This document shows positions 4,229 to 44,663 of a stretch of 44,663 nt of DNA, in pieces. Each line of letters opens with the position of its first letter. Position 1 is the stretch's first letter. The notes below the pieces were generated by a model. It did no database searches, was not told the DNA's origin, and saw only the letters and a list, made by a program, of their open reading frames with translations. The translations under genes and the position numbers were made by a program. Source of the DNA: Clostridia bacterium (GTDB lineage: Bacteria; Bacillota; Clostridia; Oscillospirales; CAG-272). Where the stretch lies: the NCBI GenBank assembly GCA_017504785.1, contig JAFVQL010000007.1, positions 1 to 44,663 on the forward strand. Direction: 5' to 3'.

Positions 4229-4285
4229 TGTTAAGTCCTCCAACGTTCGCGTGCGGCACACGGCCGCTTTTGTTTTGATGATGAT

Positions 4286-4314
4286 ATTGTACCACCAATC
4301 GAATAAATATGCAA
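4286..4314 (-). promoter_or_regulatory. Sigma-A type promoter of argGHF
   Basis: On the minus strand -35 TTGCAT (4314-4309), a 17-bp spacer and -10 TACAAT (4291-4286) lie about 60 bp before argG. The -35 box falls inside the ARG-box-like sequence at 4298-4315. Confidence 0.8.
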
Positions 4315-4315
4315 G
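4298..4315 (+). promoter_or_regulatory. Putative ArgR operator (ARG box) on the argG promoter
   Basis: ATCGAATAAATATGCAAG matches the Bacillus ARG-box consensus CATGAATAAAAATKCAAK at 14 of 18 positions by my count. It covers the -35 box, so bound ArgR would block RNA polymerase. Confidence 0.7.
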
Positions 4316-4396
4316 ACTTTTTTATAAATTTCTTCATTTTCAGCAGGTTGCACCATCATATAAAGAACATGGCTTTTCCGTTTGTTCAACTTTTTT

Positions 4397-4447
4397 CGAA
4401 TAATTGCATATTTATACGCATAATGCAGAAAAATATGCAATTATTCG
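4397..4447. promoter_or_regulatory. Upstream ARG-box cluster forming a 17-bp perfect inverted repeat
   Basis: The arm at 4397-4413 is the exact reverse complement of 4431-4447, with a 17-base loop. Two ARG-box-like 18-mers converge in it: minus strand 4420-4403 (13 of 18 consensus matches) and plus strand 4424-4441 (11 of 18). It lies about 115 bp from the promoter-overlapping box, a spacing that would allow a repression loop. Confidence 0.55.
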
Positions 4448-4622
4448 TTTTTGGGAAGATTTACGACCCTTTTGCCGCACTTTTTCGCATATCGGGCGGC
4501 GGCGTGTGCACCGCCGCTTTCCCTCTCCGCGCAGCAAACGACGCGGTCTGCCCCGCGCCGCCATAAAGCGCCCTCTTTTCTCGATCGCGCCCTTGGGAGC
4601 TTATGCAAAATATTAAAACAGA
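4448..4622. other. GC-rich intergenic stretch without a gene
   Basis: No supportable reading frame is seen. It has a GCGGCGG...CCGCCGC hairpin near 4498-4519. The small frames here overlap the argG control region or lack a ribosome binding site. Confidence 0.5.
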
Positions 4623-4655
4623 AAGCGCAGAGCGCCTTCGCGGCTTTCTGCGCTT
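4623..4655. terminator. Terminator of the polysaccharide/salvage unit
   Basis: The stem AAGCGCAGA/TCTGCGCTT encloses a CGCCTTCGCGG-type inner loop. On the minus strand it is followed by TCTGTTTTA, just downstream of the PHP gene; on the plus strand by TTTG. It may act in both directions. Confidence 0.7.
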
Positions 4656-4685
4656 TTTGCTATCCCTCTCGGCGGGCGTTAAAGA

Positions 4686-5570
4686 TCACACCCTTAAAAC
4701 GATATAGTTCGTGTACGCCGTTTTTCCGTCCTTGTCCGTGACCTCGGCGCGGACGAATTTTTCGCGCGGCAAGATCTTATGGCGGTGCTCGGTGAGATTT
4801 TCGCCGCGGGAGCAATAGCCATCCGCCCACGCGACGTTGGTAAACAGGCTGATGCGGGACACGGGCGAGGAGCGAACGACGATCTCATCCCCCTCCACCG
4901 CGATATGCACCTCGGGGCCTTGCGTTGCATAAAATCTCCCTGCCCGCACGGCGGCAAGGATCTCAGACTCACTTGCATCCTCGGCGCACTCGACCATGAC
5001 GGCGCATTTCGTTTCATCGTTGCCCGCGTAGTAATGCGTATCGTCGGTTGCCAAGAGAAGCATGGGCTTTCCAAGACAAGCGGCGAGATCGGCAAAGCAG
5101 CCCGAATAGGGGCGCGAGGACTCTCCCGCATCCGAAACGCTGTTATAGATCTCCGTTATTGCGACGTCCCCTAAAAGCAAGGCGGTCCTCGGCTGGTTTA
5201 ACGACCATGCGGGATGCGCCAGCACGGGCGTGCCACCCGCTTCGAGAATTTTCTGCACGATCTTTTCCGCGGGAAGCCTTTTCTCGCTCCCGATCTCGGG
5301 ATCGCGCGCACAGCCGAGCGCAAGAATATGGTACACACCCTCTTCTCCGCAACACAGGTTCGTGTCGTACTCTGCGCCCGAAAGGATCTTCAGCCCCGAA
5401 AGACTGCCGCCCGCCGAGAAAACATAATGGTCGGTCAGAGCGATCGCATCGTAGCCTGCCGCTTTATAAAGGGCGGCGGCCTCCTCGGGCGTTTTCATTC
5501 CGTCCGAAACCGTGGTATGGGTATGGAAATTGATCTTCATGCGGCTATGGCCAAGCATATCCTTAAACAT
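4686..5570 (-). CDS. PHP-domain metal-dependent phosphoesterase
   Basis: This cytosolic metal-dependent phosphoesterase belongs to the PHP superfamily. The metal-ligand motifs are visible in order: HTHT (16-19), TDH (46-48), E67, H81, the AHP His at 119, and DDTH (176-179). The N-terminal 10 residues before MKINFHTHT look extra, but AAGGAG lies 6 bases before the first ATG, so I keep it. It is the last gene of the long unit, 15 bp after the HAD gene, and a terminator follows. The substrate cannot be read from sequence. Relatives cleave small phosphoesters such as phosphorylated nucleosides or sugars, and pairing with a HAD phosphatase suggests metabolite clean-up. Confidence 0.85.
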   Translation of the reverse strand: MFKDMLGHSRMKINFHTHTTVSDGMKTPEEAAALYKAAGYDAIALTDHYVFSAGGSLSGLKILSGAEYDTNLCCGEEGVYHILALGCARDPEIGSEKRLPAEKIVQKILEAGGTPVLAHPAWSLNQPRTALLLGDVAITEIYNSVSDAGESSRPYSGCFADLAACLGKPMLLLATDDTHYYAGNDETKCAVMVECAEDASESEILAAVRAGRFYATQGPEVHIAVEGDEIVVRSSPVSRISLFTNVAWADGYCSRGENLTEHRHKILPREKFVRAEVTDKDGKTAYTNYIVLRV

Positions 5571-5585
5571 ATAAGACTCCTTTTC

Positions 5586-6407
5586 TTACAGCGCGATGCG
5601 CCCCTCGTCCAGATCGCAAATGATCTTCGCAATGGCATGCGCTTCGTTGGAAACCGTGATCCGATCGGCGGCATTTTTCGCCTTCTCCGAGGCGTTCTCC
5701 ACCGCGATGCCAAGCCCCGCTGCGGAAAGCATCGATACGTCGTTATCATAGTCGCCGACGGCGATCGTTTTCTTCGGATCGATGCCGTAAATATCGGCAA
5801 GGCGCAAAAGGAGAGCGCCCTTTGAAACGCCCTTCGGAAGGATCTCGAAGATCGTTTTCTCCGAGCGGATAAAATCAAATTTTTCAGCGAGCGGATGCGT
5901 TGTGAGAAGCGCTTCCAGCTTCGAAAGCTCACTATCCTCCATGTGCAGAAAGATTACCTTCGCCACGGGCTCCTTCACCTCGGTATAATGGCAGGTGATA
6001 TTCGGAAGCCCCGTCACGGCACGGAAGCGGCGCATCGCCTCGTTATCCTTATTAAAATACACGCGCCGCGCCACGTTCACTTGGATGCCCATATCGGGCA
6101 TCCTCTCATCCACGAGGGAAACGAGCGAGAGATACGACTCGTGCAAGGGGTTAAAATACAAAAACGTGTCGCTCTCGTAATCGTAAACGCCGCCGCCGTT
6201 GAAGCAGCCGATCGCCGCGTTCGGGCGCACGGCCTCATAAATTTTGCGCGCCGCCTCGGGCACGCGCCCGGTGATAAAAGTGAAGCGTCCGCCCTCTCTT
6301 TGAAAGTAGCGGACAGCTTCTAAATTTTCCTTTGAAACCGATTTGTCGGCACGCAGAAGCGTGCCGTCCAGATCCGAGCATATCAGAATGCCCTCAAATT
6401 TTTTCAT
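5586..6407 (-). CDS. Cof-type HAD-IIB sugar-phosphate phosphatase
   Basis: A cytosolic Mg-dependent phosphatase of the Cof/YidA branch of the HAD superfamily. Motif I DLDGT is at 12-16 with Asp12 the predicted nucleophile, motif II is the Thr of ITGR (45-48), motif III is Lys196, and motif IV GDYDND is at 218-223. A C2-type cap occupies about residues 80-190. The 273-residue length is typical. It lies 9 bp after the NahK-like gene and 15 bp before the PHP gene, so it probably dephosphorylates sugar phosphates linked to this salvage block. Family members are promiscuous, so no substrate is assigned. Confidence 0.9.
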   Translation of the reverse strand: MKKFEGILICSDLDGTLLRADKSVSKENLEAVRYFQREGGRFTFITGRVPEAARKIYEAVRPNAAIGCFNGGGVYDYESDTFLYFNPLHESYLSLVSLVDERMPDMGIQVNVARRVYFNKDNEAMRRFRAVTGLPNITCHYTEVKEPVAKVIFLHMEDSELSKLEALLTTHPLAEKFDFIRSEKTIFEILPKGVSKGALLLRLADIYGIDPKKTIAVGDYDNDVSMLSAAGLGIAVENASEKAKNAADRITVSNEAHAIAKIICDLDEGRIAL

Positions 6408-6416
6408 ACTCTTTTT

Positions 6417-7514
6417 TTACTCCGAAAGCTGCTTTTCGATCACGTCGCGCACGATCCATTCCAGCTCATCCCACTTGCGCTGAATATCCTTGGCAAGCGC
6501 CAGCTGACAGCGCGTACGCACGAGGTTGTGCTTCGGGTATACGCATTTGAAATATTTGTCGCCCGTGATATAGTCGTCAAGGAATCTTGCGGCAAGCTCG
6601 ATCGTGATCGCAAAGGTCGCCTTCACGAGGGTCGCGATCTCGATGTTTTCAAGCGCGCCCTTCGTTGCGCCGATGAAGCCCTTGGCAAACGCGCGAAACT
6701 TCGCGGTATCAAAGAACACGCGCGAGATATCCGCCTCGTCCTCTGCCGCGGTATTCGCGATGAAGCGCACCGCATCCGCAAAGTCGTACATCGACATGCC
6801 GGGCATAATGGTGTCCAGATCGATCACCACCAACGGCTCCTTGGTCTTGCGGTCGAAGAGAACGTTATTGCACTTGGTGTCGTTATGCGTTACGCGCTTG
6901 GGAAGCTTGCCGTCGGCAAAAAGGATCGAAAGCTCCGAGGCGAGCGCGCGGCTCTCTTCGATATATTTCACCTCTGCCGCCACCTCGCGCACGCGCCCGT
7001 AGGCATCCTCCTCAACGTGCATAAACAGCGTATCGAGGCGTTTTTTCGTGTTATGAAAATCCGGGATCGTTTCGTGCAGCAACGCGCCGTCAAAGTCCGC
7101 AAGCTGCATCTGGAAGTTACCGAACGCCTTGCCCGTTGCTTCAATGACCGCGAGGTCATCCGATGCGTTGAAGGTCACGCTGTCCACGTAGTTGATAACG
7201 CGCCAGAAGGAGTCGCTATCCTGCACAAAATAGTTCAAGCCCTCGTCGGTATGATGGAAATGCAGGCCGACCTGATCGGGATACTTTTCGCGGATAAAGG
7301 TGGTCACGCGATCGATATTCTCCATGATCTTCACGGGGCTCTTAAAAACGTGCGTATTCACGCGCTGGAAAAGATACGACTTCAGCGTATCGTCTGCGCG
7401 CATATAAGTAACCTTATACGTCGCGTTGATGTTTCCCATGGAAATCGCTTGGTAGGAATATATCTCTCCCTCAAGCCTAAATTTTTTTCCGATAACTGTT
7501 AAGGTGTTGAACAT
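6417..7514 (-). CDS. nahK: NahK-like N-acetylhexosamine 1-kinase
   Basis: Predicted to phosphorylate N-acetylglucosamine or N-acetylgalactosamine at C1 with ATP. It has the aminoglycoside-phosphotransferase fold and closely resembles bifidobacterial NahK/LnpB from memory. It has the catalytic loop THNDTKCNN (209-217, Asp212), the metal-binding IDLDTIMPG (231-239) and the family-specific YPKHNLVRTR (326-335). Its 365 residues are close to the 359 of the bifidobacterial enzyme. AAGGAG sits 8 bases before the ATG. It lies 12 bp after a sugar nucleotidyltransferase gene and downstream of a GHMP sugar kinase, which supports anomeric phosphorylation followed by nucleotide activation. The family call is strong; sugar specificity is inferred. 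Confidence 0.85.
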   Translation of the reverse strand: MFNTLTVIGKKFRLEGEIYSYQAISMGNINATYKVTYMRADDTLKSYLFQRVNTHVFKSPVKIMENIDRVTTFIREKYPDQVGLHFHHTDEGLNYFVQDSDSFWRVINYVDSVTFNASDDLAVIEATGKAFGNFQMQLADFDGALLHETIPDFHNTKKRLDTLFMHVEEDAYGRVREVAAEVKYIEESRALASELSILFADGKLPKRVTHNDTKCNNVLFDRKTKEPLVVIDLDTIMPGMSMYDFADAVRFIANTAAEDEADISRVFFDTAKFRAFAKGFIGATKGALENIEIATLVKATFAITIELAARFLDDYITGDKYFKCVYPKHNLVRTRCQLALAKDIQRKWDELEWIVRDVIEKQLSE

Positions 7515-7526
7515 GCTGTGTTCTCC

Positions 7527-8264
7527 TTATCGCATAATTCCTTTATATTCTGCCTTTACCTTCTCATAGCTCTCAAGATTGCCAATATCATACCGTTTTC
7601 CCGGCATCTGCATCGCGTGCACGCTCGTTTGCGTACACAGCCAAGCAATATAGCTGCCCGGCGCATCCGTGCCGCAGCCGCTCTCTATGCCCTCTTGCAC
7701 AAGTTTAGCGTCTCGATTTGTGTAATAATAAAAGGGAGGACAGCACCAATGCGTTGCGGGGGTGGGCGACTTTTCGGTCATATTCAAGACCCTTTCGTTC
7801 TCATCCACCGTCACAACGCCGCATTTCAAAAGCTTCTTTTCATCCGCTTCATAGTAGCGCATGATGCAGGAGGTCTGCTTTGCCTTTGCATAGAAGATAA
7901 ACTCGGTCAAGCTGAAATCCAGAACGTTATCGCCCGCGATCACGAGCATATCGTCATCCAAGCCGAGCGTATCGATCGCAAACTGAATGTCCTTCACCGC
8001 GCCGAGGCGGGTTTCGTTGGTATCCGTTCCGTCATCCACCACGGTGATCTTTTGTTGCTTGCTCTTCGCCCAGTCCTCAAAGTGGCGCGCATATTTATGA
8101 TTGGAGATCACAACGTATTCATCCACGGCGGCCGCGGTATCAATATCGTCAACCAACCAATCGAGAATGGTTTTTTCTCCGACCTTCAGCAAGGGCTTGG
8201 GGAAATTCTCGGTTAAAGGATACAGTCTCGTGGCATAGCCTGCCGCCAAAATCAAACATTTCAT
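7527..8264 (-). CDS. Sugar-1-phosphate nucleotidyltransferase
   Basis: A cytosolic nucleotidyltransferase of the NTP_transferase family that should couple a sugar 1-phosphate to an NTP, releasing pyrophosphate. The N-terminal LAAGYATRLYPLT (6-18) and FPKPLL (21-26) form the nucleotide and pyrophosphate loop, and GDN (111-113) supplies the metal-binding Asp. At 245 residues it has only the catalytic Rossmann domain, without the C-terminal left-handed helix of GlmU-type enzymes. Its ATG overlaps the stop of the GHMP kinase gene (ATGA), so the two are probably translationally coupled. The sugar 1-phosphates made by the two flanking kinases are the obvious candidate substrates. Which one, and which NTP, is unknown. 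Confidence 0.85.
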   Translation of the reverse strand: MKCLILAAGYATRLYPLTENFPKPLLKVGEKTILDWLVDDIDTAAAVDEYVVISNHKYARHFEDWAKSKQQKITVVDDGTDTNETRLGAVKDIQFAIDTLGLDDDMLVIAGDNVLDFSLTEFIFYAKAKQTSCIMRYYEADEKKLLKCGVVTVDENERVLNMTEKSPTPATHWCCPPFYYYTNRDAKLVQEGIESGCGTDAPGSYIAWLCTQTSVHAMQMPGKRYDIGNLESYEKVKAEYKGIMR

Positions 8265-26458: not shown

Positions 26459-26505
26459 AAAAAGAGATAACATTTCGGTTCGTAGCCGAAATGTTATCTC
26501 TTTTT
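26459..26505. terminator. Bidirectional terminator-like 20-bp perfect stem-loop
   Basis: The arm 26459-26478 is the exact reverse complement of 26486-26505, with a 7-base loop. Five T residues close the stem on both strands. It forms the left border of the second hairpin array and may terminate the giant gene on the minus strand. Confidence 0.8.
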
Positions 26506-26516
26506 CAGTTGGTTTA

Positions 26517-26717
26517 ATGAAATCGTTGCACAGCAACGATGAAATCTTCACTTCGTTCAGATGAAATCCAAGGTGAAGCCTTGGATGAAATCAAATCCGT
26601 TTAACTTCAACCCGGCGAAGCAGGATTTCACCGCGATAGCGATTTCATCCGCCATAGGTGGATTTCACCCGCCGAAGACGGATTTGACTGCGTGATACTC
26701 CGTTCAGAGTATCACGC
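26517..26717. repeat. Hairpin-word array element, ATGAAATC/GATTTCA family
   Basis: ATGAAATC occurs at 26517, 26539, 26561 and 26585; its reverse complement GATTTCA at 26624, 26641 and 26661, with a GATTTGA variant at 26681. Between the words are small hairpins: GTTGC-ACA-GCAAC, CCAAGG/CCTTGG, CGC-GATA-GCG and TCCGCC-ATA-GGTGGA. It ends in an 11-bp perfect stem (GCGTGATACTC with its complement, 26690-26717). The design equals that of the elements at 1-200 and 44351-44600, but with another word. No reading frame is supported in 26378-26797. Confidence 0.85.
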
Positions 26718-26797: not shown

Positions 26798-29700
26798 TTA
26801 TCGAGGAAGCGAGGTGACTCCGTTCAAGAAGATCGCTTTCAAAAGCTCCTGCTTCTGCTCGCAAACCATACGGTAATACAAGCGCACGTAGGTGCTCTCG
26901 TAATGCTCCTCGAGAAGAACGTCCTGCCAGCGAAGCGCACCGAAGGTGATATCACCCGCGAAAGAAAGAGCGCCCGGATGATCGCCGAAGACGGCAACCG
27001 TGTTCTCAAGAGCCTGCTCGCGCTGCGAGCCGACGTGCGCGCGCATCAGAGCAAGCATACGAAGGTTTACTTCCGAAAGTGCCTCGCTTTCGGCAAATGC
27101 GCCGACGGCGAGATCCCTCTCGAAGTAAGAGGAAAGCACCTCGCCCGAATGCGTGGACTGATAATTCAGGAACGCGGAGGCGGGGCCGAATTTCTCGGTC
27201 TTTGCGCTGATCGCGCCGATGCGGCCCGTATCGTGAATGCGAGTCGCATGATCCGCGCTGCCGACGTGTACCGGCACGGGCAGGATCAGAACGCCGTCCG
27301 AAAGATCACGGTACGGAGAGGTCTCGAGCGAAGCGAGGATCGTCACACCGCCGAAGAGCGCACCGCCGCTTGCAAAGCGCGCACGCGCGGCACTTGCGGT
27401 TTCGGCACGAAGCACGCCCTTACCGCCTATTAGCTTATCGAGCTGATCCGCGAAGAGATAAAGCGCTTCGTTGTCCGCTCCGTCATAGAGAGAGACGGAG
27501 GAGGTGTACAGAAGTCCCGCAGCCGTCAGGCTATCCTCCGCAAGCACAAGGCCCGCCTTATCGGAGGAAGCGTTCGCATCGGTAAACGCCGCGCTGTAAC
27601 GCAGGAGCGCGTCATAGGTCCACTCGCCGCTCTCCGCCATCGCCGCCAGCGTCTCTACGGCGTTTTCACCGAGAGAGGAAAGCATCGTGGCGTTCACGGG
27701 AATGCAGTAGAATGCACGCGCAAGGTCGATGAAGTAATCCGATGCCAGAAGGTACATACGGTCGCTATCAAAGGCGAGCGACTCCATGTATTCGTACATA
27801 TAGCCCTCGCTGTCACCGATCGTTTCCGCATAGGACTCGTTCATCGCGAAGTCAAAGTAGTTATCCGAAAGCTCGGTCTTGAGGTTTGCAAAGCAGCCGA
27901 GCAGAGATGCGGCGAGCATATCGTATCCGAAGTTACAGTATACGTCCGCATATTTACCTATCTCCTGCTCCACGGCAATACGCTCGTAATTCTTCGACCA
28001 CGCATATTCGCCGATCATATCATCGGGAAGATAGCGGTACGAAGCCGAAACGCCGGTCGCCTCGGTGGCGGCGGCATTGCGCGCAAGGATCAAGTTCTCG
28101 GTTACAGGATCGGCGTCTATCGCGATGCCCGCCATAAAGGCTTGCGAAAGCGATTTAAAGGTTCCGCCCGAGTGGTTATTGATCTCAAGGGTGACCGTTT
28201 CGCTCTCCCATGTAAATTCGGGCTCTACCTGTTCGCCGCAATCATCGCAGAAGCCGTCCATGTTCTGATCGGCATGTGCCGTGCAGTCCACTGCCGCGGT
28301 GCAATAATCGCAGAGAAGATCGTGGTTATGATCCTTATGAACGAGGCAGACGAAGTAATTACACCACAGGCAGCCGCCGCCCGTTTCATCGAACTCGTGC
28401 ACGCAGTCCACGGCTTTGCCGCAAACGTCGCAAAGGAGATTATGATTTTCGTCCGTATGATCGCAAAGCGATCCGGTCACGATCTTGCCGTCCTCGCCGT
28501 AATACCAAAAGCTTCCCTGCTCTGTCTGTGCGACGGCGGTATAGAAATAGATCTCGGCACTCTCGAGGGGGCGGTTGTTTTTCGCCACGGTGATCTCGTC
28601 GAATCCGGTACTGTCACCCGCATAGCAAATGCTGTCAAGAGACGGGCAGCGAGAGAACGCGCCGTGTCCGATGCGAAGAACGCTCGCGGGCATGACCACG
28701 CGATCCAGCGACTTACAGCCGCTGAAGGCACCGAGGCCAAGCGTTTGCAGTCCCTCGGGAAGCACCGTCTCGGTAAGAGCGGTACAGCCGGAGAATGCGC
28801 CCAAGCGGATCACGCGCAGAGCATCGCCGAACGCAACGTCCGTAAGGCTCACGCAATTTGCAAACGCGGAAAGGCCGATGATCTCTACCCTGTCTCCGAG
28901 CGTGACACGCTCAAGAGAGGAGCAAAGCGCGAACGCCGCCGCGCCGATCTCCCTCACTCTGTCACCCACCGTGACCTCACGGAGGTTAGAGCAGCCCGCA
29001 AAGGCGGCATAGCCGATCTTCTTTACGCTGTCGGGGATCGAAACACCGATCAGACGGCGGCACGCCGCCAACGCCGCAGGGGCAATTTCGGTAACGGGTG
29101 CGCCGTTATAAATAGAAGGAATATAAAGGTAAGGATCCGTGCAGTCGCCGATCGAGATCACGGCGTAGGTGCCGTCATTCTTTTGCTTGAAGCAAAGTCC
29201 CTCTGGGAAGATCTCTCTGCCGCAAACGTCGCAGAAGCCATCGCCATCTTCGTCCGCGCAGAGCGAGATCGTGTGCGCGCACTCGTCGCAGATATGATTG
29301 CGATCCGCATCCGTGCAAGCACCCGCATTCTCACCGCAGATCTCGCAAAGGTGATCCCCGTCAAGGTCAATATCCTCGCAAGGCGTGATCCTTTCGCCGC
29401 AAATATCGCAGAGGTGATCGCCGTTATCGTCCTCACAATCGGTCAGCACCTTGCCGCAAATATCGCAAAGGTGATTTGCATCGTTATTTTGGCAGGCGGA
29501 AAGCGTTTCGCCGCAGACGTCGCAAAGATGATCGCGGTTTTCATCGCGGCATTCGGTCTGCTTGCCGCAATCGTCGCAGAGGTGGTCTTTATCCATATCC
29601 TTGCAATGGATAAGGATCTCGCCGTCCTCGCCGTAGTACCAGAAGTATCCGTCGGTCGCGGGCGCATGCTCGCAGTAGAAGAATACGGTGGCATCCGTCA

Positions 29701-32700
29701 GAGCGGTGTTACCCGCCGCCATTTCGATCGCGCCCCAGCCGGCGGCGCGGCCGCCGTAATAAACGGTGATTGCCCCGCAGTCCGCAAAGGCGTTTTCCGC
29801 CACGCTTGCAAGGCCCGTGCCGATCTCTATGGCTGCAAGAGAGGTGCAGCCCGAAAAGGCGCTCTCGCCGATGGTCTTTACGCTGTCCGTAAGGACGATA
29901 CGGCGGATATCCTTTGCATTCGCAAAGGCGCCCGCGCCGATGGCGGTGACAGGCTGACCAAGGTAGGTCGCGGGGATCACGAGCGTCGTATCCGTGCAGG
30001 TACCGATGCCCGTCAAGGTATAAGAGCCGTCCGCGTTCGCGGCAAAGGTGAAGCCCTCGCTCCAATCCGTCTCTTTGCCGCAATGCTCGCAAACGCCGTC
30101 TGCATTCGCGTCCTTGTGCGCGCTCTTGCTCTTTTGGCAAACGTCGCAAAGATGATCCTTGTCGGTATCCGCAGAGAGGCCGTTCAGCATGTCGGCGTAC
30201 AGATGTGCAAAGTAGGTATAGTTATAAAGCAGTTGGATCTTTTCGATCACTGCGGGATCGGTTTGATGATAGAGATAATTTTCAAGACTGTATTTATATT
30301 CCTCGGTCTTGCCGTCCTTGGTTGCAAGCAGGGTGAGCGTACCGAAGAACTCGTTGATATAGATCTGCTCGAAGATGACTATATCTCCCGTCATCGCGAG
30401 CGTTTCCTTTCTGCCGGAGGAAAGCGTGAGCTCCACCTCTGTGCCCGCTTCGCCGAGAAGCGCGATCGAAACCGTGCCGTTCGGCTGGAAGGCAATGAAG
30501 TGCAACAGGGTGTTACCCGCATTCTCCGAAGGACGCGCCGTGGGAACGGCTCTGCGGTAGCCCTCGGGGGCCTCGCAAAGCGAAAGTCTGGTGCCCGTCT
30601 GCGCCTCTACGTGCTCGACCATGGCATAGGTGAGATCGTGCGCGGCGGCGTAAGCACCCTCGGCAAGAATTGCCGCGGCGTACTGCTCGATGCTGACGTT
30701 GACCGCGTGCTTATACGCACCGACCGAAAGAAGGATCTGCACGGGAACGTGTGCAAGATTCGGTGCGATCGAGGCGGTGAGGCGATAATAGCCGTCCTCC
30801 GCCGTCATATCCGAAAGCGTATAGGTCACGCCTGCCACGCTTACCTCGCTCGCCCCAAGCGTCTCGGCAAGATAAATATTGAGTCCGATCGTGCCCTGCA
30901 GGGTAAGGCTCATACGAAGAACACCCGGGCGCACGGCAGCGACCTTGCTCTGTCCCAAAACGGAGCTTGTGTTCACGAGTGTGGGAAGGAAGGTATAGCC
31001 GAACATGCCGCCGACCGTCGCGTTTGCGTGGGTTGCGGTCTCGCCGAGCCCCCATACCTCGATGGGAAGGCCGTAGCCCCAATCCACCGATCCGACGCTA
31101 TCGACGGAGAAATATGCATAAAGGCGATAGGTCTTGCCCGCCACCGTTCTTTCGAGAAGGGCAGGCACCTTGCCTTCGGGCGCTTGACCGCCGTACAGAG
31201 CGGAAAGCGCATCCGTATCGGCAAGTGCCACGCCGTCATACTGCACCGCCGCGCCCGCACAAGGAAGGGTGAAGCCGAGGACGATCGCATCCGTGACCGT
31301 TAGCGAATATATACCGCCGTGAACGAAGTCGATCGCATCGCCGCCGTGCAGATACGCACCGCCGCGCACGGTCAAGGTCGCCTTTGCCGAATCGGAGAAG
31401 AAGAGTGCGCCGTCGGATTCAACCGTGATATTCTCGCCGTCGATCACGAGGTCTATATCCTCTCCGTCGGCTGCATAGAAGAGCGCGGAGGCAGAGAGGC
31501 TTTGAATGCGCGCACCGGGGCGCGAGGAAACCAGAGCAAAGAGAGGACTGTGAGAGCCTTGGAAGGCAAACGCACCGTCCGCATCGGCAGATACCGTGAC
31601 GGTATGGCCGTTCAGATCCAGCGTCACGCCGCCGATCGAGGAGAGAGTGGTACGCTCGGATAAAAGAATATCCTCGCAGAGCCGGATGCTTGCCGTGCCA
31701 TCCAGCGCGTTGAGTGCGCCGCGCAAGAGCGCTCCGAGGTCTGCCTCGGTCGCTCCGTCAAGGAACAGCTGATACGAGATCCGACCTTGGCTGTCGGTAC
31801 AGATAAACGCGATCGGGAGCTGCTCCGTCGGCATAACGGCGCCTTCGCAGAACGTGCAGCCGTCAAGGGTAAGGAGCGGCGCATCCGTCATGCCCAAATA
31901 AAGGAAATCCGCCAAGCCGCATTCGCTGAGGAAGCAGCAGCTCTCAAGGGTGATCGCCTCCGTGCCGCTCACCGCCATGAAGGCAGTACCGCGATGCGAG
32001 AGAACGAAGGTGGCGTTCGCCGCCGTGTAGAGCGGCGAAGGACAGAAGAAGTATTCTGCCGTGCTGCTCTCGCTCTGCACGAATCGGCCGCCGCGAAGGG
32101 CAACCGCCGCACCGCTTGCATTCACACGCGCGCATTCCACGGTGAGATTTTCTCCGTATTGCGAAGCGTTCTCATCGCTTTCGCCAAGCACGAAGGTCGC
32201 GCCGCTCGCCGTACCGATCAGGGTGGCGTTCTCGGCGATCACACGGCCGCCGAAGAGAGAGGAATAGAGATAGAACTCTCCGCGCTCCACCGTCATGGCC
32301 GTGCCCTCGCCCGTGAAGGTCAAGGTCTTGCCTTGCAGATCAAGGAAGCCCGCGCCGCAAGTGATGCCGCTCGCAAGCGTTACACTCTCGTACAGGGTGA
32401 TGCGCGCGCCATTCATCGTGCCGAGATAATTTTCCAACTCGGATGCGCTGTAATAGTAAAGGATCTCGCCGTTTACCGAAACGGAGAAATACACCTTTTC
32501 ATAGCCCGTCGCGTATACGGTCTGCCCTATCATGTCAGTGGTGACCGTCAGATCCGTAAGAAGTGTGCCGTTTAAATAGTACTTCCAGCCGTTACCCGTA
32601 TTGGCGTACGTGCTTCCGTTTGCACGGTAGGTTTGCGCCAAGGTGAAGGGCTCGATGGTCTTGCCCACGTAGAAGAGCTCGGTTCTGCCGTCGGGATAAT

Positions 32701-35700
32701 AAACGGTAACGAAGCCGGACGAGGAAGCGTTCAAGGCATACTTGAAGGTATATTCCTCGCCGTTCACGGTAACGCTCTGCTCCGCCACGGCGGTAAAATT
32801 CATACCGCTGTCGGTAGGCAGACTGCCCGAGAAGCCGAACAAACAGTCGGTGTGCGTCACACCGAAGGAAGTCTCGGGAATCATATCATAGAACTGACAT
32901 CCCGAGAAGGTCGGAGCGTTGGAAAGAGAGCCGTTCGCGTTAAAGAGAGAGAGCGAATTCACCGTGGAAATAAATTTGCAGTTCTTAAAATCTATTTTAA
33001 GGCCCGCGTTGTAGTACAGAGGTGCGGTTGTCTGCGTGATAACGAAGGTAGTGTTTTCTACCCCCTTGATATGGGTGTTGGAGCCGATTGACGTTCCCGT
33101 TCTGGAAAGCAGTAAAAAGTATTCTGCCGTGCTCTTGGTGCTTTGCACGAAGGTACCGCCGCGGAAATACACGCCCTTACCGTACATATACTCGTTCACG
33201 GAAGCGCAAACGACCGTGAGGTTCTTTCCGTAGGTATTCGCCCCTGCCGCGATCTCGCCGATATAGAGAGTGGCAGAGGGCTTGATCGCTTCGCCGTCTC
33301 CCCATTTGTATTCATCGTTGTTCGTGCGGAAGAGCGCATGATTTTCCGCCACAATGCGGCCGCCGGGGGTGGAAGAATACAGATAGAAGTGCGCCGCCTT
33401 AATATCCATCGCCGCGTTCGATTTATCGGGGATGGGGGTGAAGATGAAGGTCAAGGTCTTGCCGTTCAGATCGAGGAAATATTCCGCGCTCTTCACCAGA
33501 TCCGCATCGCCCGTGCGCTTGCCGGAAACGATGGTCTGCGAAAGCGTTACGTCCTCGTAAAGGGTAATGCGAGCGCCCGCATCCATCGCGCCGAGATAAT
33601 CCTGCAGAATGGATGCATAGGTGGATGCATCCGTGTAATAGGTGATCTCACCGTTCGCCTCGATGGAAAGGTACGCCTTTTCATAGCCCGTCGCGTACAC
33701 GGTCTTATTCAGCATGTCGGCGGTGACCGTCAGATCCGTAAGAAGCGTGCCGCTTTGGCTTCCGAGACGGAAGCTCCACCCCTCCGCGGTAAGAGTGTAA
33801 TAGTTTCCGTCTTCGCCGGCATACAACCGCAGATCGATCGCGGGAACGATCCGGGAGCCGACCGGGAAGATCTGCGAAAGACCGCCGGGATATACGACCG
33901 TACAGCCCTCTAGCGAAAGCGTGTACCCGAAGGTATACGCCTTGCCGCCGACCGAAAGGGCGACCTCGGAGATCGAAGAGAACGCAGCTCCCTCGAGCTT
34001 TTCGGAGGGGGCAGAGGCCGTGAAGCCGAACACGCAATCCTCATAGCTTACGTATACCTCACCCAAAAAGATAGAGGGATATATATTATAGAAGTAACAA
34101 TTCTTGAAGGCGGGCACGCCGAAAGTCTCGCCGTCCTGCCTGAAGAGCGCGACCGACTCGCTTGCCGTATGGATAAAGCGGCAATCCTCAAAGGTGATAC
34201 GCTCGGTGGTGGCGAAAAGAAGCATCTCCGCTTCGCCGCCCGTGATGAAGGATGCGCCCTTGATCTTCATTTGATTGCTTCCTTCCATCGGAAGGAAGGG
34301 CTCTGTGCCGCCGCTCTGCTCGAGCGTTACGCCGAGAATGGCGATCGAGGCGTTTTCTGCGCCACGGAGCATGCACGGGGTAAGAACGGTGAGATTTTCT
34401 CCGTATTGCGAAGCGTTCTCATCGCTTTCGCCAAGCACGATGCCGCCCGCAACACAGATCTTGCTTCCGCCCCTCACCGTGTAGACATGATCGCCGGCCG
34501 AAAGGAGCGCATGACTCGGTGCTTCGATCCTTGCACCGCCGACAGAGGAATAAAGATAGAGCCTATGCACGCGAACGTCGATCGCGGCACCTTCTCCACC
34601 TGCAAAGCGCAGCGTGTGACCGTTCAGGTCAAGATAATTCTCTGCGTTTTCCGTTTCGATCTTTGCGCTGCCGTGCGCGTTGATCACGCGAAACGCCTCC
34701 ACGGTGATATCCGAATAAAGCTTTATGCGCGCGCCGATGGGAAGCGAGGACATCAAAGCCTTGAAGTCAAATACATAGGTATCGGCATTTGCGTAGTACT
34801 CGATCCCGCCCTCGGTTTCTACGGCAAAAAATATCTTTTCATAGATGTGCTCTACCTCGAGGGTATAGCTCCCTCCGATCATATCCAGCGTGACCGTCAG
34901 AGAAGAAAGCTGTGCGCCATTCGCGCCGATGAGCGCCCACTTCTCTTCCGTGAGAACGTAGAAAGCACCGTCAGAATCGGTATACGTCTGCTCTGCCGTA
35001 GGAAGAGCGATCGTCTGACCCAGAGTATAGGAAACGGTCTTTCCGCTCGGCAAAGTAACCGTTGCCATGTTGTCTATCACGGAATCGGTCACGCCGTTCA
35101 GTGTGCAAGCGGTAAAATTAGGACTCAACGCGGTTCTGCTACCGAGCTTACACAGCTTGTATACCGAAGCATCGGCGGAAAATTGGCAATTCGTGATCTC
35201 CGGCGCGGCGGCACTCGTAGCGGCCGTATCGCCGAAAAGAGCCGCGGAGCCTTCCGCAAGAGTGAACTTTGCATACACGATCTTTGACACATTGAAAAGC
35301 TCGATAAAGGTGAGCGCGGGTGTGCTTTGCTCGTAAACGCCGCCAAGGATAGAGCCGCCGTTGCTTTGAAGGCCGGTGAAGATCGATTTTCCAAAGAAGG
35401 TGATATACTCCTTTCTTTGCGTTGCATTCGGAGAAAGGTCGCCGAGACAGATCTGGGATTTATCAGCACCCGTGCTGAACATATAATCCGCGCTCTCGTG
35501 ATGCCACTGCGCGCCCGCGACCTTGGAATAGATGTAAAAGATGATACCGCTGATCTTGACCGGCTCGGTCTGCGTCACCGTAACGCTGTGTCCGTTCAGA
35601 TCGAGGGCACAGGTGGTGTTTTTGGTAGCGCTTTCGTCCTCCCAGTTGGGATTGAAGCTTGAAAACTCCATATCGGCGTAAAGCGTCACGTAAACGACCC

Positions 35701-37123
35701 CGCCAGAAAAACCTTTGTAGTCCGTATTGGATTGTTTGTCCAAAAAATCATCCAGATCGTCCTCAAAATGATAGACGGTCTGATCACCTACAACGGTTTT
35801 GTAATACGCCCTTTGATAGGTATGCTGTCCTTCCATGCGGTAGCTCTTTCCGATCATATCCGGCGTGACCGTCGGAGAAGAAAGCTGCGCGCCATTCGCG
35901 CCGATGAGCACCCACTTCTCTTCCGTGAGAACGTAGAAAGCACCGCCAGAATCGGTATACGTCTGCTCTGCCGTAGGAAGAGCGATGGTCTGACCGACGG
36001 TATAGGAAACGGTCTCGCCGCTCGGCAAAGTAACCGTCGTCGTGTTGTCTATCACGGAATCGGTCACGCCGGTTAAAGGCTCGCCGTTCAGTGTGCAAGC
36101 GGTAAACGCAAGGCTCAGCGCGGTTCTGCTGCCGAGCTTACACAGCTTGTATACCGAAGCATCGGCGGAAAATTGGCAATTCGTGATCTCCGGCGCGGCG
36201 GCACTCGTAGCGGCCGTATCGCCGAAAAGAGCCGCGGAGCCTTCCGCAAGGGTGAACTTTGCATACACGATCTTTGACACCTTTAAAAGCTCGATAAAGG
36301 TGAGCGCGGGTGCGCTTTGCTCGTAAACGCCGCCAAGGATAGAGCCGCCGTTGCTTTGAAGGCCGGTGAAGATCGATTTTCCAAAGAAGGTGATATTCTC
36401 CTTTATTTGCGTTGCACCCGAAGAAGTGTCGCCGAGACGGATCCCGGATTTATTAACACCCATGCTGAACATATAATCCGCGCTCTCGTGATGCCACTGC
36501 GCGCCCGCGACATTGGAATAGATGAAAAAGATGATACCGCTGATCTTGACCGGCTCGGTCTGCGTCACCGTAACGCGGTGTCCGTTCAGATCGAGGGCAC
36601 AGTTGGTATTTCCGCTAGCGCTGCTGTTCTCCCAGTTGGGATTGAAGCTTGAAAACTCCATATCGGCGTAAAGCGTCACGTAAACGACCTTGGTAAGAAG
36701 GCTTGTGTAGCCCGTATTGAATTGTTTGTCAAAAAATTCATTCAGGTCGTTTTCGTAATACTCGGTGACCGTACTGCCCACCTTCGTCTTATAGTACACC
36801 TGGCTTGCGCCCAAGGCGAGAATGCGCTTGCCCGCAAGGCTTTCGGTGACCTCTAAAGAGGAGAGCGCCGTGCGCTCCTTCTCCAGAGCGAATTGCCAGC
36901 CCGCGGCCGCATCGACCTTAAAAAGCGTATTCCCTTGGCCGTGATAATAGCCGTCCGCCACCGAGGGGGGGACGATCGTTTCGCCAACGGGGACCTGCAC
37001 CTCGGTGCCGTCGGGATACACCACGGTGGCGGTCTCCGCCTCGGCAAACGCCGTTACGGAAAGAAGCACCGCAAGAAGCGAGGCGATCAGGGTGATAAAG
37101 AAAAACTTTGCAGCTTTTTTCAT
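26798..37123 (-). CDS. Giant secreted mosaic protein: beta-helix-like modules, BspA-type LRRs, DHxCDxCG repeats, solute-binding-like C-terminus
   Basis: A 3441-residue exported protein. A signal peptide (1-27, cleavage after AFA) is followed by about five modules to roughly residue 2000. Each opens with a (V/T)xYPxG or TLPSG segment plus VGxTI and contains a conserved LDLNGH strand, suggesting parallel beta-helix folding. Residues about 2010-2310 form a further domain (LQGTIGLNIYLAETLG). Two BspA-type leucine-rich blocks follow (about 2357-2487 and 2654-2864), each ending in a FWYYGEDG linker. Twelve Asp-rich CxxC repeats of the type DHLCDVCG surround them. The last 470 residues resemble the C-terminal part of a family 1 solute-binding protein (GEWTYDALLRYSAAFTDAN, FASGGALFGG, ILPVPV). 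No LPXTG motif is seen. AAAGGAG lies 8 bases before the ATG. It is probably a surface or adhesion protein; its ligand is unknown. Confidence 0.85.
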   Translation of the reverse strand: MKKAAKFFFITLIASLLAVLLSVTAFAEAETATVVYPDGTEVQVPVGETIVPPSVADGYYHGQGNTLFKVDAAAGWQFALEKERTALSSLEVTESLAGKRILALGASQVYYKTKVGSTVTEYYENDLNEFFDKQFNTGYTSLLTKVVYVTLYADMEFSSFNPNWENSSASGNTNCALDLNGHRVTVTQTEPVKISGIIFFIYSNVAGAQWHHESADYMFSMGVNKSGIRLGDTSSGATQIKENITFFGKSIFTGLQSNGGSILGGVYEQSAPALTFIELLKVSKIVYAKFTLAEGSAALFGDTAATSAAAPEITNCQFSADASVYKLCKLGSRTALSLAFTACTLNGEPLTGVTDSVIDNTTTVTLPSGETVSYTVGQTIALPTAEQTYTDSGGAFYVLTEEKWVLIGANGAQLSSPTVTPDMIGKSYRMEGQHTYQRAYYKTVVGDQTVYHFEDDLDDFLDKQSNTDYKGFSGGVVYVTLYADMEFSSFNPNWEDESATKNTTCALDLNGHSVTVTQTEPVKISGIIFYIYSKVAGAQWHHESADYMFSTGADKSQICLGDLSPNATQRKEYITFFGKSIFTGLQSNGGSILGGVYEQSTPALTFIELFNVSKIVYAKFTLAEGSAALFGDTAATSAAAPEITNCQFSADASVYKLCKLGSRTALSPNFTACTLNGVTDSVIDNMATVTLPSGKTVSYTLGQTIALPTAEQTYTDSDGAFYVLTEEKWALIGANGAQLSSLTVTLDMIGGSYTLEVEHIYEKIFFAVETEGGIEYYANADTYVFDFKALMSSLPIGARIKLYSDITVEAFRVINAHGSAKIETENAENYLDLNGHTLRFAGGEGAAIDVRVHRLYLYSSVGGARIEAPSHALLSAGDHVYTVRGGSKICVAGGIVLGESDENASQYGENLTVLTPCMLRGAENASIAILGVTLEQSGGTEPFLPMEGSNQMKIKGASFITGGEAEMLLFATTERITFEDCRFIHTASESVALFRQDGETFGVPAFKNCYFYNIYPSIFLGEVYVSYEDCVFGFTASAPSEKLEGAAFSSISEVALSVGGKAYTFGYTLSLEGCTVVYPGGLSQIFPVGSRIVPAIDLRLYAGEDGNYYTLTAEGWSFRLGSQSGTLLTDLTVTADMLNKTVYATGYEKAYLSIEANGEITYYTDASTYASILQDYLGAMDAGARITLYEDVTLSQTIVSGKRTGDADLVKSAEYFLDLNGKTLTFIFTPIPDKSNAAMDIKAAHFYLYSSTPGGRIVAENHALFRTNNDEYKWGDGEAIKPSATLYIGEIAAGANTYGKNLTVVCASVNEYMYGKGVYFRGGTFVQSTKSTAEYFLLLSRTGTSIGSNTHIKGVENTTFVITQTTAPLYYNAGLKIDFKNCKFISTVNSLSLFNANGSLSNAPTFSGCQFYDMIPETSFGVTHTDCLFGFSGSLPTDSGMNFTAVAEQSVTVNGEEYTFKYALNASSSGFVTVYYPDGRTELFYVGKTIEPFTLAQTYRANGSTYANTGNGWKYYLNGTLLTDLTVTTDMIGQTVYATGYEKVYFSVSVNGEILYYYSASELENYLGTMNGARITLYESVTLASGITCGAGFLDLQGKTLTFTGEGTAMTVERGEFYLYSSLFGGRVIAENATLIGTASGATFVLGESDENASQYGENLTVECARVNASGAAVALRGGRFVQSESSTAEYFFCPSPLYTAANATFVLSHRGTAFMAVSGTEAITLESCCFLSECGLADFLYLGMTDAPLLTLDGCTFCEGAVMPTEQLPIAFICTDSQGRISYQLFLDGATEADLGALLRGALNALDGTASIRLCEDILLSERTTLSSIGGVTLDLNGHTVTVSADADGAFAFQGSHSPLFALVSSRPGARIQSLSASALFYAADGEDIDLVIDGENITVESDGALFFSDSAKATLTVRGGAYLHGGDAIDFVHGGIYSLTVTDAIVLGFTLPCAGAAVQYDGVALADTDALSALYGGQAPEGKVPALLERTVAGKTYRLYAYFSVDSVGSVDWGYGLPIEVWGLGETATHANATVGGMFGYTFLPTLVNTSSVLGQSKVAAVRPGVLRMSLTLQGTIGLNIYLAETLGASEVSVAGVTYTLSDMTAEDGYYRLTASIAPNLAHVPVQILLSVGAYKHAVNVSIEQYAAAILAEGAYAAAHDLTYAMVEHVEAQTGTRLSLCEAPEGYRRAVPTARPSENAGNTLLHFIAFQPNGTVSIALLGEAGTEVELTLSSGRKETLAMTGDIVIFEQIYINEFFGTLTLLATKDGKTEEYKYSLENYLYHQTDPAVIEKIQLLYNYTYFAHLYADMLNGLSADTDKDHLCDVCQKSKSAHKDANADGVCEHCGKETDWSEGFTFAANADGSYTLTGIGTCTDTTLVIPATYLGQPVTAIGAGAFANAKDIRRIVLTDSVKTIGESAFSGCTSLAAIEIGTGLASVAENAFADCGAITVYYGGRAAGWGAIEMAAGNTALTDATVFFYCEHAPATDGYFWYYGEDGEILIHCKDMDKDHLCDDCGKQTECRDENRDHLCDVCGETLSACQNNDANHLCDICGKVLTDCEDDNGDHLCDICGERITPCEDIDLDGDHLCEICGENAGACTDADRNHICDECAHTISLCADEDGDGFCDVCGREIFPEGLCFKQKNDGTYAVISIGDCTDPYLYIPSIYNGAPVTEIAPAALAACRRLIGVSIPDSVKKIGYAAFAGCSNLREVTVGDRVREIGAAAFALCSSLERVTLGDRVEIIGLSAFANCVSLTDVAFGDALRVIRLGAFSGCTALTETVLPEGLQTLGLGAFSGCKSLDRVVMPASVLRIGHGAFSRCPSLDSICYAGDSTGFDEITVAKNNRPLESAEIYFYTAVAQTEQGSFWYYGEDGKIVTGSLCDHTDENHNLLCDVCGKAVDCVHEFDETGGGCLWCNYFVCLVHKDHNHDLLCDYCTAAVDCTAHADQNMDGFCDDCGEQVEPEFTWESETVTLEINNHSGGTFKSLSQAFMAGIAIDADPVTENLILARNAAATEATGVSASYRYLPDDMIGEYAWSKNYERIAVEQEIGKYADVYCNFGYDMLAASLLGCFANLKTELSDNYFDFAMNESYAETIGDSEGYMYEYMESLAFDSDRMYLLASDYFIDLARAFYCIPVNATMLSSLGENAVETLAAMAESGEWTYDALLRYSAAFTDANASSDKAGLVLAEDSLTAAGLLYTSSVSLYDGADNEALYLFADQLDKLIGGKGVLRAETASAARARFASGGALFGGVTILASLETSPYRDLSDGVLILPVPVHVGSADHATRIHDTGRIGAISAKTEKFGPASAFLNYQSTHSGEVLSSYFERDLAVGAFAESEALSEVNLRMLALMRAHVGSQREQALENTVAVFGDHPGALSFAGDITFGALRWQDVLLEEHYESTYVRLYYRMVCEQKQELLKAIFLNGVTSLPR
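34891..36850 (-). repeat. Tandem internal duplication in the giant gene (period about 975-991 bp)
   Basis: The stretch from about 34891 recurs from about 35866 with long identical tracts; the offset is 975 bp there and 991 bp near 35103/36094. It encodes two adjacent modules of about 330 residues, one from TVSYTVGQTIALPTAEQTY onward. A 15-bp in-frame insertion near 36070 in the upstream copy explains most of the offset change. Confidence 0.85.
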
Positions 37124-37415: not shown

Positions 37416-37461
37416 ACTTTTCCATTATTTTTCGGAGCCGTCAGCGGTGCAAAGGATGCGC

Positions 37462-37684
37462 TTGGTGCACCTGCCATAAAGCAGGTGCACCAACTCTATT
37501 CGCCTGCGGCGAGTGATATGCACTTCGTGCGTGATATTGCCTTCGGCAGTGATATGCGCTACGCGCGTTTGAAAGTACAAAGGCGAATAGAATATCACTG
37601 CGACCACAGAGTTGCAAAGCAGCTCGGAGCAATATCACTTTTGCGAAGCAAAAATATCACGCCGAGCCATGCGAGGCATATCAC
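37462..37684. repeat. Hairpin-word array element, GTGATAT/ATATCAC family
   Basis: A 13-bp perfect stem-loop (TTGGTGCACCTGC, 37462-37493) opens the element. GTGATAT then occurs at 37513, 37531 and 37549, and the reverse complement ATATCAC at 37592, 37632, 37654 and 37678. Small hairpins lie between the words: TCGCC-TGC-GGCGA, GCAC-TTC-GTGC, TGCC-TTC-GGCA and TTTTGC/GCAAAA. CTATTCGCCT (37496-37505) is the exact complement of AGGCGAATAG (37581-37590). Same layout as the other elements, third word. No gene is supported in 37124-37902. Confidence 0.85.
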
Positions 37685-37756
37685 TTAAAAATCTTTACCG
37701 CCTGACAATACACCTATAAGGTGTAACACACTACACCTTGCAGGGCAAGAAGTGTG

Positions 37757-37791
37757 AAAAGGAGTACAGACAAAATTCCCGTACTCCTTTT
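37757..37791. terminator. Terminator downstream of the cyclophilin gene and of the third array
   Basis: An 11-bp perfect stem AAAAGGAGTAC/GTACTCCTTTT has T-rich flanks on both strands, so it can serve the cyclophilin operon on the minus strand and any array transcript on the plus strand. The 110 bp between it and the cyclophilin stop hold no gene. Confidence 0.7.
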
Positions 37792-37902
37792 GTTGTATTT
37801 GCGGTTAGTAAAAACTGCTTTATGGTAGGTGCCCCTTCGCGCTTTCCTTTTTCCATGATGCGCTTGCGGATCTTCCTTTTTTGCTTTCAAAGGGGCAAAG
37901 GA

Positions 37903-44273: not shown

Positions 44274-44300
44274 TTCCTTTGGAGCATCGCTCTAAAGGAA
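44274..44300 (+). terminator. 12-bp stem-loop downstream of the small membrane protein gene
   Basis: TTCCTTTGGAGC pairs with GCTCTAAAGGAA (one wobble) around a 3-base loop, 19 bp after the stop. No T run follows directly, so it may protect the 3' end rather than terminate. Confidence 0.5.
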
Positions 44301-44350
44301 GATGGAGATTGAAAAATTACGATACCTACCAATAAAAAGGACAGAGAATT

Positions 44351-44600
44351 TTAGCGTGTTATCCTTAACGGAGAACACGCTAAAACTATAATTGCCCTTG
44401 CGGGCAAGTTATGAGCGATGATATGCTTCGCATAGTTATGATTGGCTTCGCCAAGTTTAAGGTTTGATGGGCAATCCTATCATAACATTTGCGTAGCAAA
44501 TTCATAACGGTGAGCGAAAGCGAGCCTCATAACTCTAAACTAAAACGAACAGAAAAAGAGCAGACATGCAAGATTTTTCTTGCGTGTTTGCTCTTTCTGT
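44351..44600. repeat. Hairpin-word array element, TTATGA family, right copy
   Basis: It opens with the 10-bp stem TTAGCGTGTT/AACACGCTAA (44351-44383). The word TTATGA is at 44409 and 44436; the complement TCATAAC is at 44480, 44502 and 44527. Hairpins between are TATGC-TTC-GCATA (44422-44434), TTGGC-TTC-GCCAA (44442-44454) and ATTTGC-GTA-GCAAAT (44487-44501). It closes with a 19-bp stem, with mismatches, at 44555-44596, of terminator type. It is nearly identical to 1-200 but has one more hairpin module and one exchanged stem. Confidence 0.85.
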
Positions 44601-44602
44601 TT

Positions 44603-44663
44603 GTGTAGGGGTTCCCCGAAGCGAAGCATGAGCTTTGGGGGTTCACGTGTAGGGGTTCCCCGA
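44603..44663. repeat. Start of a tandem repeat, 44-bp period, at the window end
   Basis: The 17-mer GTGTAGGGGTTCCCCGA occurs at 44603 and 44647, containing the palindrome GGGGTTCCCC. The window stops inside the second unit, so copy number is unknown. Confidence 0.75.

Follow-up and report, generated by a model that had tools for sequence, protein, structure and literature searches.

Word-hairpin arrays of gut Clostridia as probable mobile cassettes in terminator loops, with a candidate MOBV-type origin of transfer

The word-hairpin arrays described here probably belong to non-autonomous, terminator-nesting mobile cassettes of uncultured gut Clostridia, which in one family (family B) bear a candidate origin of transfer (oriT). 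We propose that each cassette consists of terminal inverted repeats (TIRs), a payload and a right-end module, and that it would be seated in the loop of an intrinsic terminator. The broad kind, a non-autonomous element bounded by TIRs, is known; the target and the array are unusual. The window, the whole stretch of 44,663 nucleotides that was analyzed, is one complete contig (C33) of a 1.52-Mb genome bin that is 77% complete and comprises 85 contigs.

Four arrays and their relatives

A first-pass annotation of the window had described four arrays in which a short word is repeated with hairpins between its copies and is followed by repeats of the reverse word. All four are present where they had been placed, their words having been located by direct reading of the window, and with stems and folds beyond those of shuffled sequences they are real and not products of chance. 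Some details need correction. The arrays at 1-200 and 44349-44663 are of the same family and each is cut by a contig end, the element at 26459-26717 is inverted and incomplete at its right end, and only that at 37462-37835 is complete. The features are as follows.

1-200, plus strand: family-A element, cut by the contig start
30-137: its words, GTTATGA three times (30, 37, 57) and TCATAAC twice (102, 131)
about 150-200: its internal terminator
26459-26717, minus strand: family-A element, inverted, with its left hairpin at 26690-26717
26517-26667: its words, ATGAAATC four times and GATTTCA three times
26459-26505: its internal terminator, the remainder of the right end being missing
37449-37461: putative left arm of a host terminator outside the family-B element, decayed in this copy (score 13, L027, not above control)
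37462-37835, plus strand: family-B element, the sole complete one of the four
37462-37493, plus strand: its left TIR hairpin, TTGGTGCACCTGCCATAAAGCAGGTGCACCAA
37491-37560, plus strand: left half of its array, a match to the Rfam Gut-1 RNA (51.2 bits)
37494-37504, plus strand: word 1 and the left arm of hairpin 1 (CTCTATTCGCC), which can re-pair with 37582-37591 (11-nt complement)
37513-37684: its words, GTGATAT three times and ATATCAC four times
37582-37684, plus strand: right half of its array, GGCGAATAGA and ATATCAC at 37592, 37632, 37654 and 37678, with hairpins between
37721-37756, minus strand: MOBV-type oriT candidate, ..TAGTGTG/TTACAC.., the nick being predicted to fall on that strand between 37727 and 37726
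37757-37791, both strands: internal terminator-like stem-loop
37811-37835, plus strand: right TIR, AAAACTGCTTTATGGTAGGTGCCCC, inverted relative to the left TIR
37836-37854: putative right arm of the host terminator outside the element, decayed in this copy
44349-44663, plus strand: family-A array with its ends, cut by the contig end at 44663
44349-44385, plus strand: its left-end hairpin, TTTTAGCGTGTTATCCTTAACGGAGAACACGCTAAAA, about where the best copies start (query position 51-52)
44408-44533, plus strand: its word array, GTTATGA twice (44408, 44435) and TCATAAC three times (44480, 44502, 44527)
44455: GTTTAAGG, between the forward and reverse words of this array, in which hairpins separate the words
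44553-44596, no strand assigned: its internal terminator-like stem-loop
44608-44644, plus strand: hairpin GGGGTTCCCC..GGGGGTTC within the element

The elements run from a left-end hairpin, often a perfect one, through word 1, hairpin 1 and further words with hairpins between them to a centre, and from there through reverse words with hairpins to the right-end module, with its internal terminator-like stem-loop, and the inverted right end. The hairpin at 44608-44644 also recurs away from arrays, in places as copies about 40 bp apart (G016). Elsewhere in the window, a 3441-aa open reading frame with BspA-type leucine-rich repeats (Pfam LRR_5) occupies 26798-37123 on the minus strand, and a direct repeat, gaaagttttggcgccgccccgaagcggtaga, lies near the contig start at about 205-240 and 330-365, about 125 bp apart.

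Further copies in the genome, on which the annotation's idea of a repeated family turned, were found on other contigs. The six best copies of the family shared by the arrays at 44349 and 1-200 are 89-96% identical, with unrelated flanks, and in the search for relatives a query starting at 44300 matched 23 of 40 genomes, the window's own counted. This family (A) has the words TTATGA and TGAAATC and the ends TTTAGCGTG..CACGCTAAA and TTCTCCGCTAAGGACATCACCC, and seven complete copies measure 352-450 bp. Family B, in which several words (TGATAT, TGATGT and TGAAAT) occur under one end type, is bounded by ACCTGCnATAAAGCAGGT-type hairpins and an inverted right end; the TIR pattern has 32 sites in the window's genome at one mismatch or fewer, against none for the reversed control. 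Among the matches listed (80 of at least 112), the carriers of the family-B left hairpin are mostly Clostridia or Oscillospiraceae gut bins, accompanied by chance matches in unrelated genera. Three patterns searched for in viral contigs gave no match, and neither did a whole-element search of plasmids and phages.

The elements are thus short, bounded by TIRs, multicopy and free of a transposase gene, as miniature inverted-repeat transposable elements (MITEs) are. CRISPR loci consist of identical repeats of about 20-50 nt separated by unique unstructured spacers, a definition that these arrays do not fit, the words being of 6-8 nt and most spacers being hairpins (199 of 298). The anatomy of REP/BIME elements also differs, as the elements here have TIRs and measure about 230-450 bp where they hold arrays. 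Correia, BOX/RUP/SPRITE and other prokaryotic MITEs are likewise short, intergenic and multicopy, many with TIRs (PMC10969869), and BrickBuilt also has an internal tandem repeat (PMC4596501); the portions of these two sources consulted describe no terminator-loop targeting, oriT or word-hairpin/reverse-word array. A literature search for a prior description of the elements found nothing.

Terminator loops, gene cassettes and mobility

The annotation had offered a mobile element as one possible identity, and this is borne out by the dispersed copies, the TIRs, the location within terminator loops and a single empty site at which 2 bp were duplicated. The DNA just outside both ends pairs as the arms of a terminator, in the order A-rich, stem, element, stem, T-rich, and this position is shown for about half to two thirds of the complete copies. 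For 25 complete family-B elements the mean arm complementarity is 21.0, versus 14.7 for swapped flanks (600 pairs), with 14 at or above the 95th percentile of the control and seven at or above the 99th; the other 11, the window copy (score 13) among them, are without significant arm pairing. Among seven distinct complete family-A elements, four exceed the 95th percentile of a control that includes some self pairs, since each element was entered twice; one more has visible arms (score 20) and two show no arm pairing.

The one strict empty site lies between acn and hpf, where the terminator GTGCCGATCGGCAC is plain in the sister genome G070 and interrupted in the window's genome. Specifically, the latter reads AAAAAAAGAGATGTGCCGATC, an element of about 350 bp and TCGGCACATCTCTTTTTTTT, and the former AAAAAAGAGATGTGCCGATCGGCACATCTCTTTTTT, from which it follows that TC was duplicated. 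G054 has a different plain terminator between the two genes, and the remaining 27 aconitase loci fetched are too different for an empty-site comparison. Solo left-end hairpins also occupy terminator loops (L082, L111, L116, L127, L130, L131, L170, L223 and L245), and L116, L127, L130, L131 and L170 have similar surroundings except for the outer stem of the terminator, in which the differences are matched between the arms. Group IIC introns, which are ribozymes with a reverse transcriptase, insert adjoining terminator stem-loops, beside the hairpin and not inside it, whereas the elements described here sit inside it.

The annotation had also suggested a 3'-end structure, and with regard to place this holds: the 3' end of at least one neighbouring gene lies within 400 bp in 31 of the 35 complete elements that could be judged by simple ORF calling (a further two extended beyond the fetched stretch, and for three it contained a single neighbour). 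With regard to role it is a rival reading, in which the arrays would be mRNA 3'-end structures, either stabilizers of the REP/BIME sort or double-sided terminators, spread by duplication and not by a dedicated recombinase. The internal terminator-like stem-loops and the intercistronic, stop-codon-adjacent arrays without TIRs (see below) fit such a role as well as the 3'-end positions do, but it does not call for sharp TIRs, an empty site with a target duplication, similar cassettes at different terminators or an oriT candidate, and we consider it unlikely.

The ends of family B also enclose single genes, in elements of 943-1631 bp that contain no word array. When 23 cassette ORFs were compared with Pfam, 16 had an XRE-type HTH domain (HTH_3 or HTH_26) over the cut-off, one was AraC with a Cass2 domain, one LytTR, one LPG_synthase_C and one DUF6809, and three had no domain over the cut-off; in about half of the cassette loci the left end alone falls inside the fetched stretch. 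Cassettes that by eye are closely similar occur in more than one record (L094/L168/L317, L099/L110, L137/L176 and L126/L180); mostly XRE-type regulators, they sit at different terminators, with differing flanks where these were read.

No transposase or integrase was found among the 23 cassette ORFs with Pfam or, by eye, in the other cassettes, and no autonomous parent transposon with matching ends was found among the cassettes examined. IS30 elements make 2-bp duplications and use palindromic targets, and were considered as the mobilizer; they were dropped because genes with the IS30-type HTH_38 domain are too rare, occurring in just 14 of 60 genus genomes and not at all in the window's genome. 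At L137, positions 3451-7746 hold, next to an XRE cassette, the gene of a large serine recombinase together with ORFs that by eye are ParB-like and relaxase-like. As a mobilizer this recombinase was also set aside: the gene set, judged by eye, suggests a separate neighbouring mobilizable element, and no right TIR lies beyond it within the fetched stretch. We propose that a recombinase supplied in trans would move the cassettes within the cell.

A candidate origin of transfer in family B

The right end of family B resembles the MOBV oriT of pMV158/MobM and is, judged by its sequence, a likely start site for conjugation. Array cassettes and gene cassettes alike have the right-end core GTnTAACACACTATACCTTGCnnGCAAGG (seen in 54 right ends that the core itself was used to select); on the reverse strand it is CACAC-hairpin-TATAGTGTG/TTATAC. 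Of 37 elements defined by their TIRs, 35 contain the nick motif at two or fewer mismatches, and in 32 it comes with an inner hairpin of at least 5 bp; once six loci fetched by the core are left out, the motif is present in 29 of 31. As reference we used the 43 nt of the pMV158 oriT printed in PMC5863519, of which the sections consulted describe the nick TAGTGTG/TTA and the flanking CACAC..GTGTG that family B has in common with it, together with the inner hairpin before the nick and the repeat around the nick, also found in family B.

In a scan of the window against this reference, the right end of the element at 37462-37835 ranked first of 4460 scan positions with a score of 35, the next locus scoring 31, and none of 6168 background positions reached 35 (maximum 33). 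Across the elements, the nick strand scores at least 35 in 19 of 31 (range 18-46), versus none of 31 for the other strand (range 15-30). A typed 38-nt version of the core matched 21 plasmid records, seven of them at 80% coverage or more (best E 2e-5), versus nine weak records for the reversed core, none at that coverage (best E 5). The letters of real copies gave weaker matches: those of the window copy matched 17 records, none at 80% coverage or more, by the nick half (best E 2), and those of the L303 copy 16 records, eight at 80% coverage or more (best E 0.5). These weaker matches are offset by the unsupervised scan with the pMV158 oriT.

In six of the 11 plasmid places opened, a mobV/Mob_Pre relaxase gene (one confirmed by Pfam) lies near the match, at 41 (H8), 42 (H9), 6 (H56) and 50 nt (H58), at 61 nt in H11, where the match is just 18 nt long, and in H2 at 138 nt from the ORF start, with the relaxase on the other side; the stretches at the other five have no annotated relaxase. 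At L332, from another order, the core lies about 175 nt from a Mob_Pre ORF. The core pattern occurs in 16 of 295 order genomes, across many families, and in 8 of 391 class genomes, and with this scatter it looks to have spread horizontally; at least three core loci (L304, L312 and L313) are without element ends. Against an oriT role, Mob_Pre relaxases are not enriched with the core (4 of 16 core genomes versus 61 of 295), and none is present in the window's genome at its 77% completeness. Five phage records also match the core, one of them, MT836484.1 (a human faecal 'Bacteriophage sp.' of 13.5 kb, unannotated), over the whole core at 3068-3105 with 89.5% identity (E 7e-5), and the rest weakly.

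The MOBV oriT of plasmids lies beside mobV, whereas here it would lie in chromosomal cassettes of about 230-1630 bp without a relaxase gene, and the overall sequence identity of the family-B right end to any single plasmid is modest. Close parallels are MTnSag1 / tISCpe8 and relaxase-less mobilizable elements, which according to PMC5704250 are likewise tiny and bounded by TIRs, lack a relaxase and carry an oriT mobilized in trans; they encode an IS1595-family transposase and make 8-bp duplications, whereas no transposase was found here and the duplication, at the single site where it could be read, is of 2 bp and lies in a terminator loop. Family A, to which the element at 44349 belongs, shares the array and the occurrence in terminators but has no identified oriT. 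Its right end had no plasmid match, and when shortened gave a single weak one (E 9); a reading of this end as a MOBQ oriT, suggested by a resemblance, found no plasmid support and was rejected. A third end type yielded nothing beyond weak matches.

Gut-1 RNA and the role of the array

The statement in the annotation that the arrays match no named repeat class does not hold, as the left half of the family-B array in the window matches Rfam RF01706 (Gut-1) end to end at 37491-37560, its 51.2 bits exceeding the curated gathering cut-off of 50. The other arrays of the window fall below it, with 48.5 bits at 26620-26690 (minus strand), 19.0 at 44383 and 18.2 at 5. In the window's genome, 16 matches exceed the cut-off and 48 are found at E≤10, a loose limit at which nine of 14 control genomes also match, none over the cut-off. 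In ten of the 16, four or more reverse words follow within the next 230 nt; a contig end truncates another three after 31-36 nt, and the remaining three are arrays of a single orientation with no more than two reverse words. The right half of two copies also matches Gut-1, on the opposite strand and more weakly (33.6 and 33.7 bits). At E≤1e-3, 56 of the 60 genus genomes have a Gut-1 match, which in 47 exceeds the cut-off (controls: one of 14, none over it); at E≤1e-4 the order genomes give 123 of 295, with 103 above the cut-off (controls: none of 14). An Rfam search of five loci at E≤0.5 returned nothing beyond Gut-1 and one chance microRNA match.

Weinberg et al. 2010 (PMC2864571), in the part that lists Gut-1, mark it 'Y' (certainly RNA) and not cis-regulatory, and give human gut sequences as its sole source. 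In the elements described here it forms one arm of a longer palindrome that has mobile ends and occurs in many genomes, and a literature search found no published account that places Gut-1 within a larger element. As far as sequence matching can tell, the elements account for Gut-1, such that this named orphan RNA family would be half of a mobile element.

The design of the array is constant while its words are not. RNA folding energies lie 9.0 to 11.5 sd below those of shuffles for three of the four arrays, all but that at 1-200 (z of -9.81 for the word array within 44349-44663). Distinct word-to-word spacers form a stem in 199 of 298 cases, versus 14.0% of shuffled spacers, counted for five preset words over the loci fetched by that point. 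The words vary across elements (TGATAT, TGATGT, TGAAAT, TGAAATC, TTATGA, TGAAGT and TCGATA), and of 150 half-arrays, 141.5 have the same word class on the left as on the right, a count that used nine preset words, left out halves with fewer than two reverse words of any class, may include one element once per strand and takes related copies separately. In 39 of 48 family-B arrays, versus none of 960 shuffles, the centre is the complement, over 10 nt or more, of the segment made up of word 1 and the left arm of hairpin 1, and this long-range complement shows matched changes on both sides (GATGTTTGCCC/GGGCAAACATC, GATGCTTGCCC/GGGCAAGCATC and GAAATTTGCCC/GGGCAAATTTC). Compensatory change, on which the annotation's folded structure depended, is thus seen both in the agreement of the words and in the long-range pairing. 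Hairpin 1 and the long-range stem are mutually exclusive because the left arm of hairpin 1 also complements the centre.

Might the words instead be subterminal binding sites of a putative transposase, shifting as the specificity of the enzyme shifts? They point inward from both ends and change together within the copies of an element, as such sites might, but the gene cassettes with family-B ends have no word array and one end type carries TGATAT, TGATGT and TGAAAT, which makes this reading very improbable. The same array design occurs in both end families, and word arrays without TIRs lie beside genes at L019, L030, L057, L060 and L066, so that the array is able to exist without family-A or family-B ends. 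At L066 a tandem TGATAT-type array at about 1340-1950 has many Gut-1 matches about 64 bp apart, and its first word by eye overlaps the stop codon of the adjoining reverse ORF.

These observations bear on whether the array works as RNA or as DNA. Gut-1 with its mirror half could be a true structured non-coding RNA for which the mobile ends are a mere vehicle, with hairpins under selection and unpaired words that make contact with proteins or antisense partners. Such a role would be in line with the 'Y' grade and with the discussion of Gut-1 as noncoding in the sections of PMC2864571 consulted, which also argue, for another motif, that UUCG loops stabilize RNA rather than DNA. On the word-forward strand of the arrays the commonest loops are TTC (38 of 199) and TTT (22 of 199); the same array sits under two TIR families, the arrays without TIRs adjoin or separate genes, and the oriT candidate at L029 is overlapped by a promoter-like match (10 of 12) that is directed into the array. 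Against this, promoter-like matches are near shuffle level (2 versus 0.6 at L029, and 1, outside the array, versus 0.5 for the window copy), the near mirror-image structure means that either strand would form it, and the stems show no excess of G.T over A.C (5 versus 10 among 1084 pairs). The last test is weak because 115 terminator-like hairpins used as control gave 34 G.T versus 24 A.C among 1054 pairs; the array stems are cleaner than terminator stems. Overall we regard an RNA as the less probable product, a possibility that deserves some weight.

We lean toward a role as DNA because the stems show no G-U excess and the array lies directly behind the predicted nick. In the mechanism that we put forward for family B, a visiting MOBV relaxase would nick the element at the candidate oriT and pass one strand to other cells. 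In conjugative transfer the 5' end enters first, and the array would enter the recipient first because it sits just behind the nick. With less assurance, we suggest that the array may work as folded DNA on the transferred or lagging strand by means of its hairpins and two mutually exclusive pairings, and that it might serve, for example, in second-strand priming or protection; such a role would explain why the hairpins are kept as perfect palindromes and the words are matched between the halves. We advance this role of the array tentatively, as one that may well prove wrong. The whole combination is bolder, and we hold it to be possible yet doubtful: the array would be a new DNA structural module for the single-stranded phase of transfer that lies behind a MOBV nick, enters first and folds into a branched ladder with a pairing switch, its word copies being rewritten together, and its hosts would be cassettes that lack a transposase, nest in terminators and ferry single regulator genes among gut Clostridia.

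Insertion in the terminator loop would let the elements accumulate with little harm, and in one family this targeting is tied to a likely start site for conjugation. If the proposal is correct, this is the way in which many single-gene cassettes of gut Clostridia (XRE, AraC and LytTR) move, and the joint change of all word copies within an element becomes testable.
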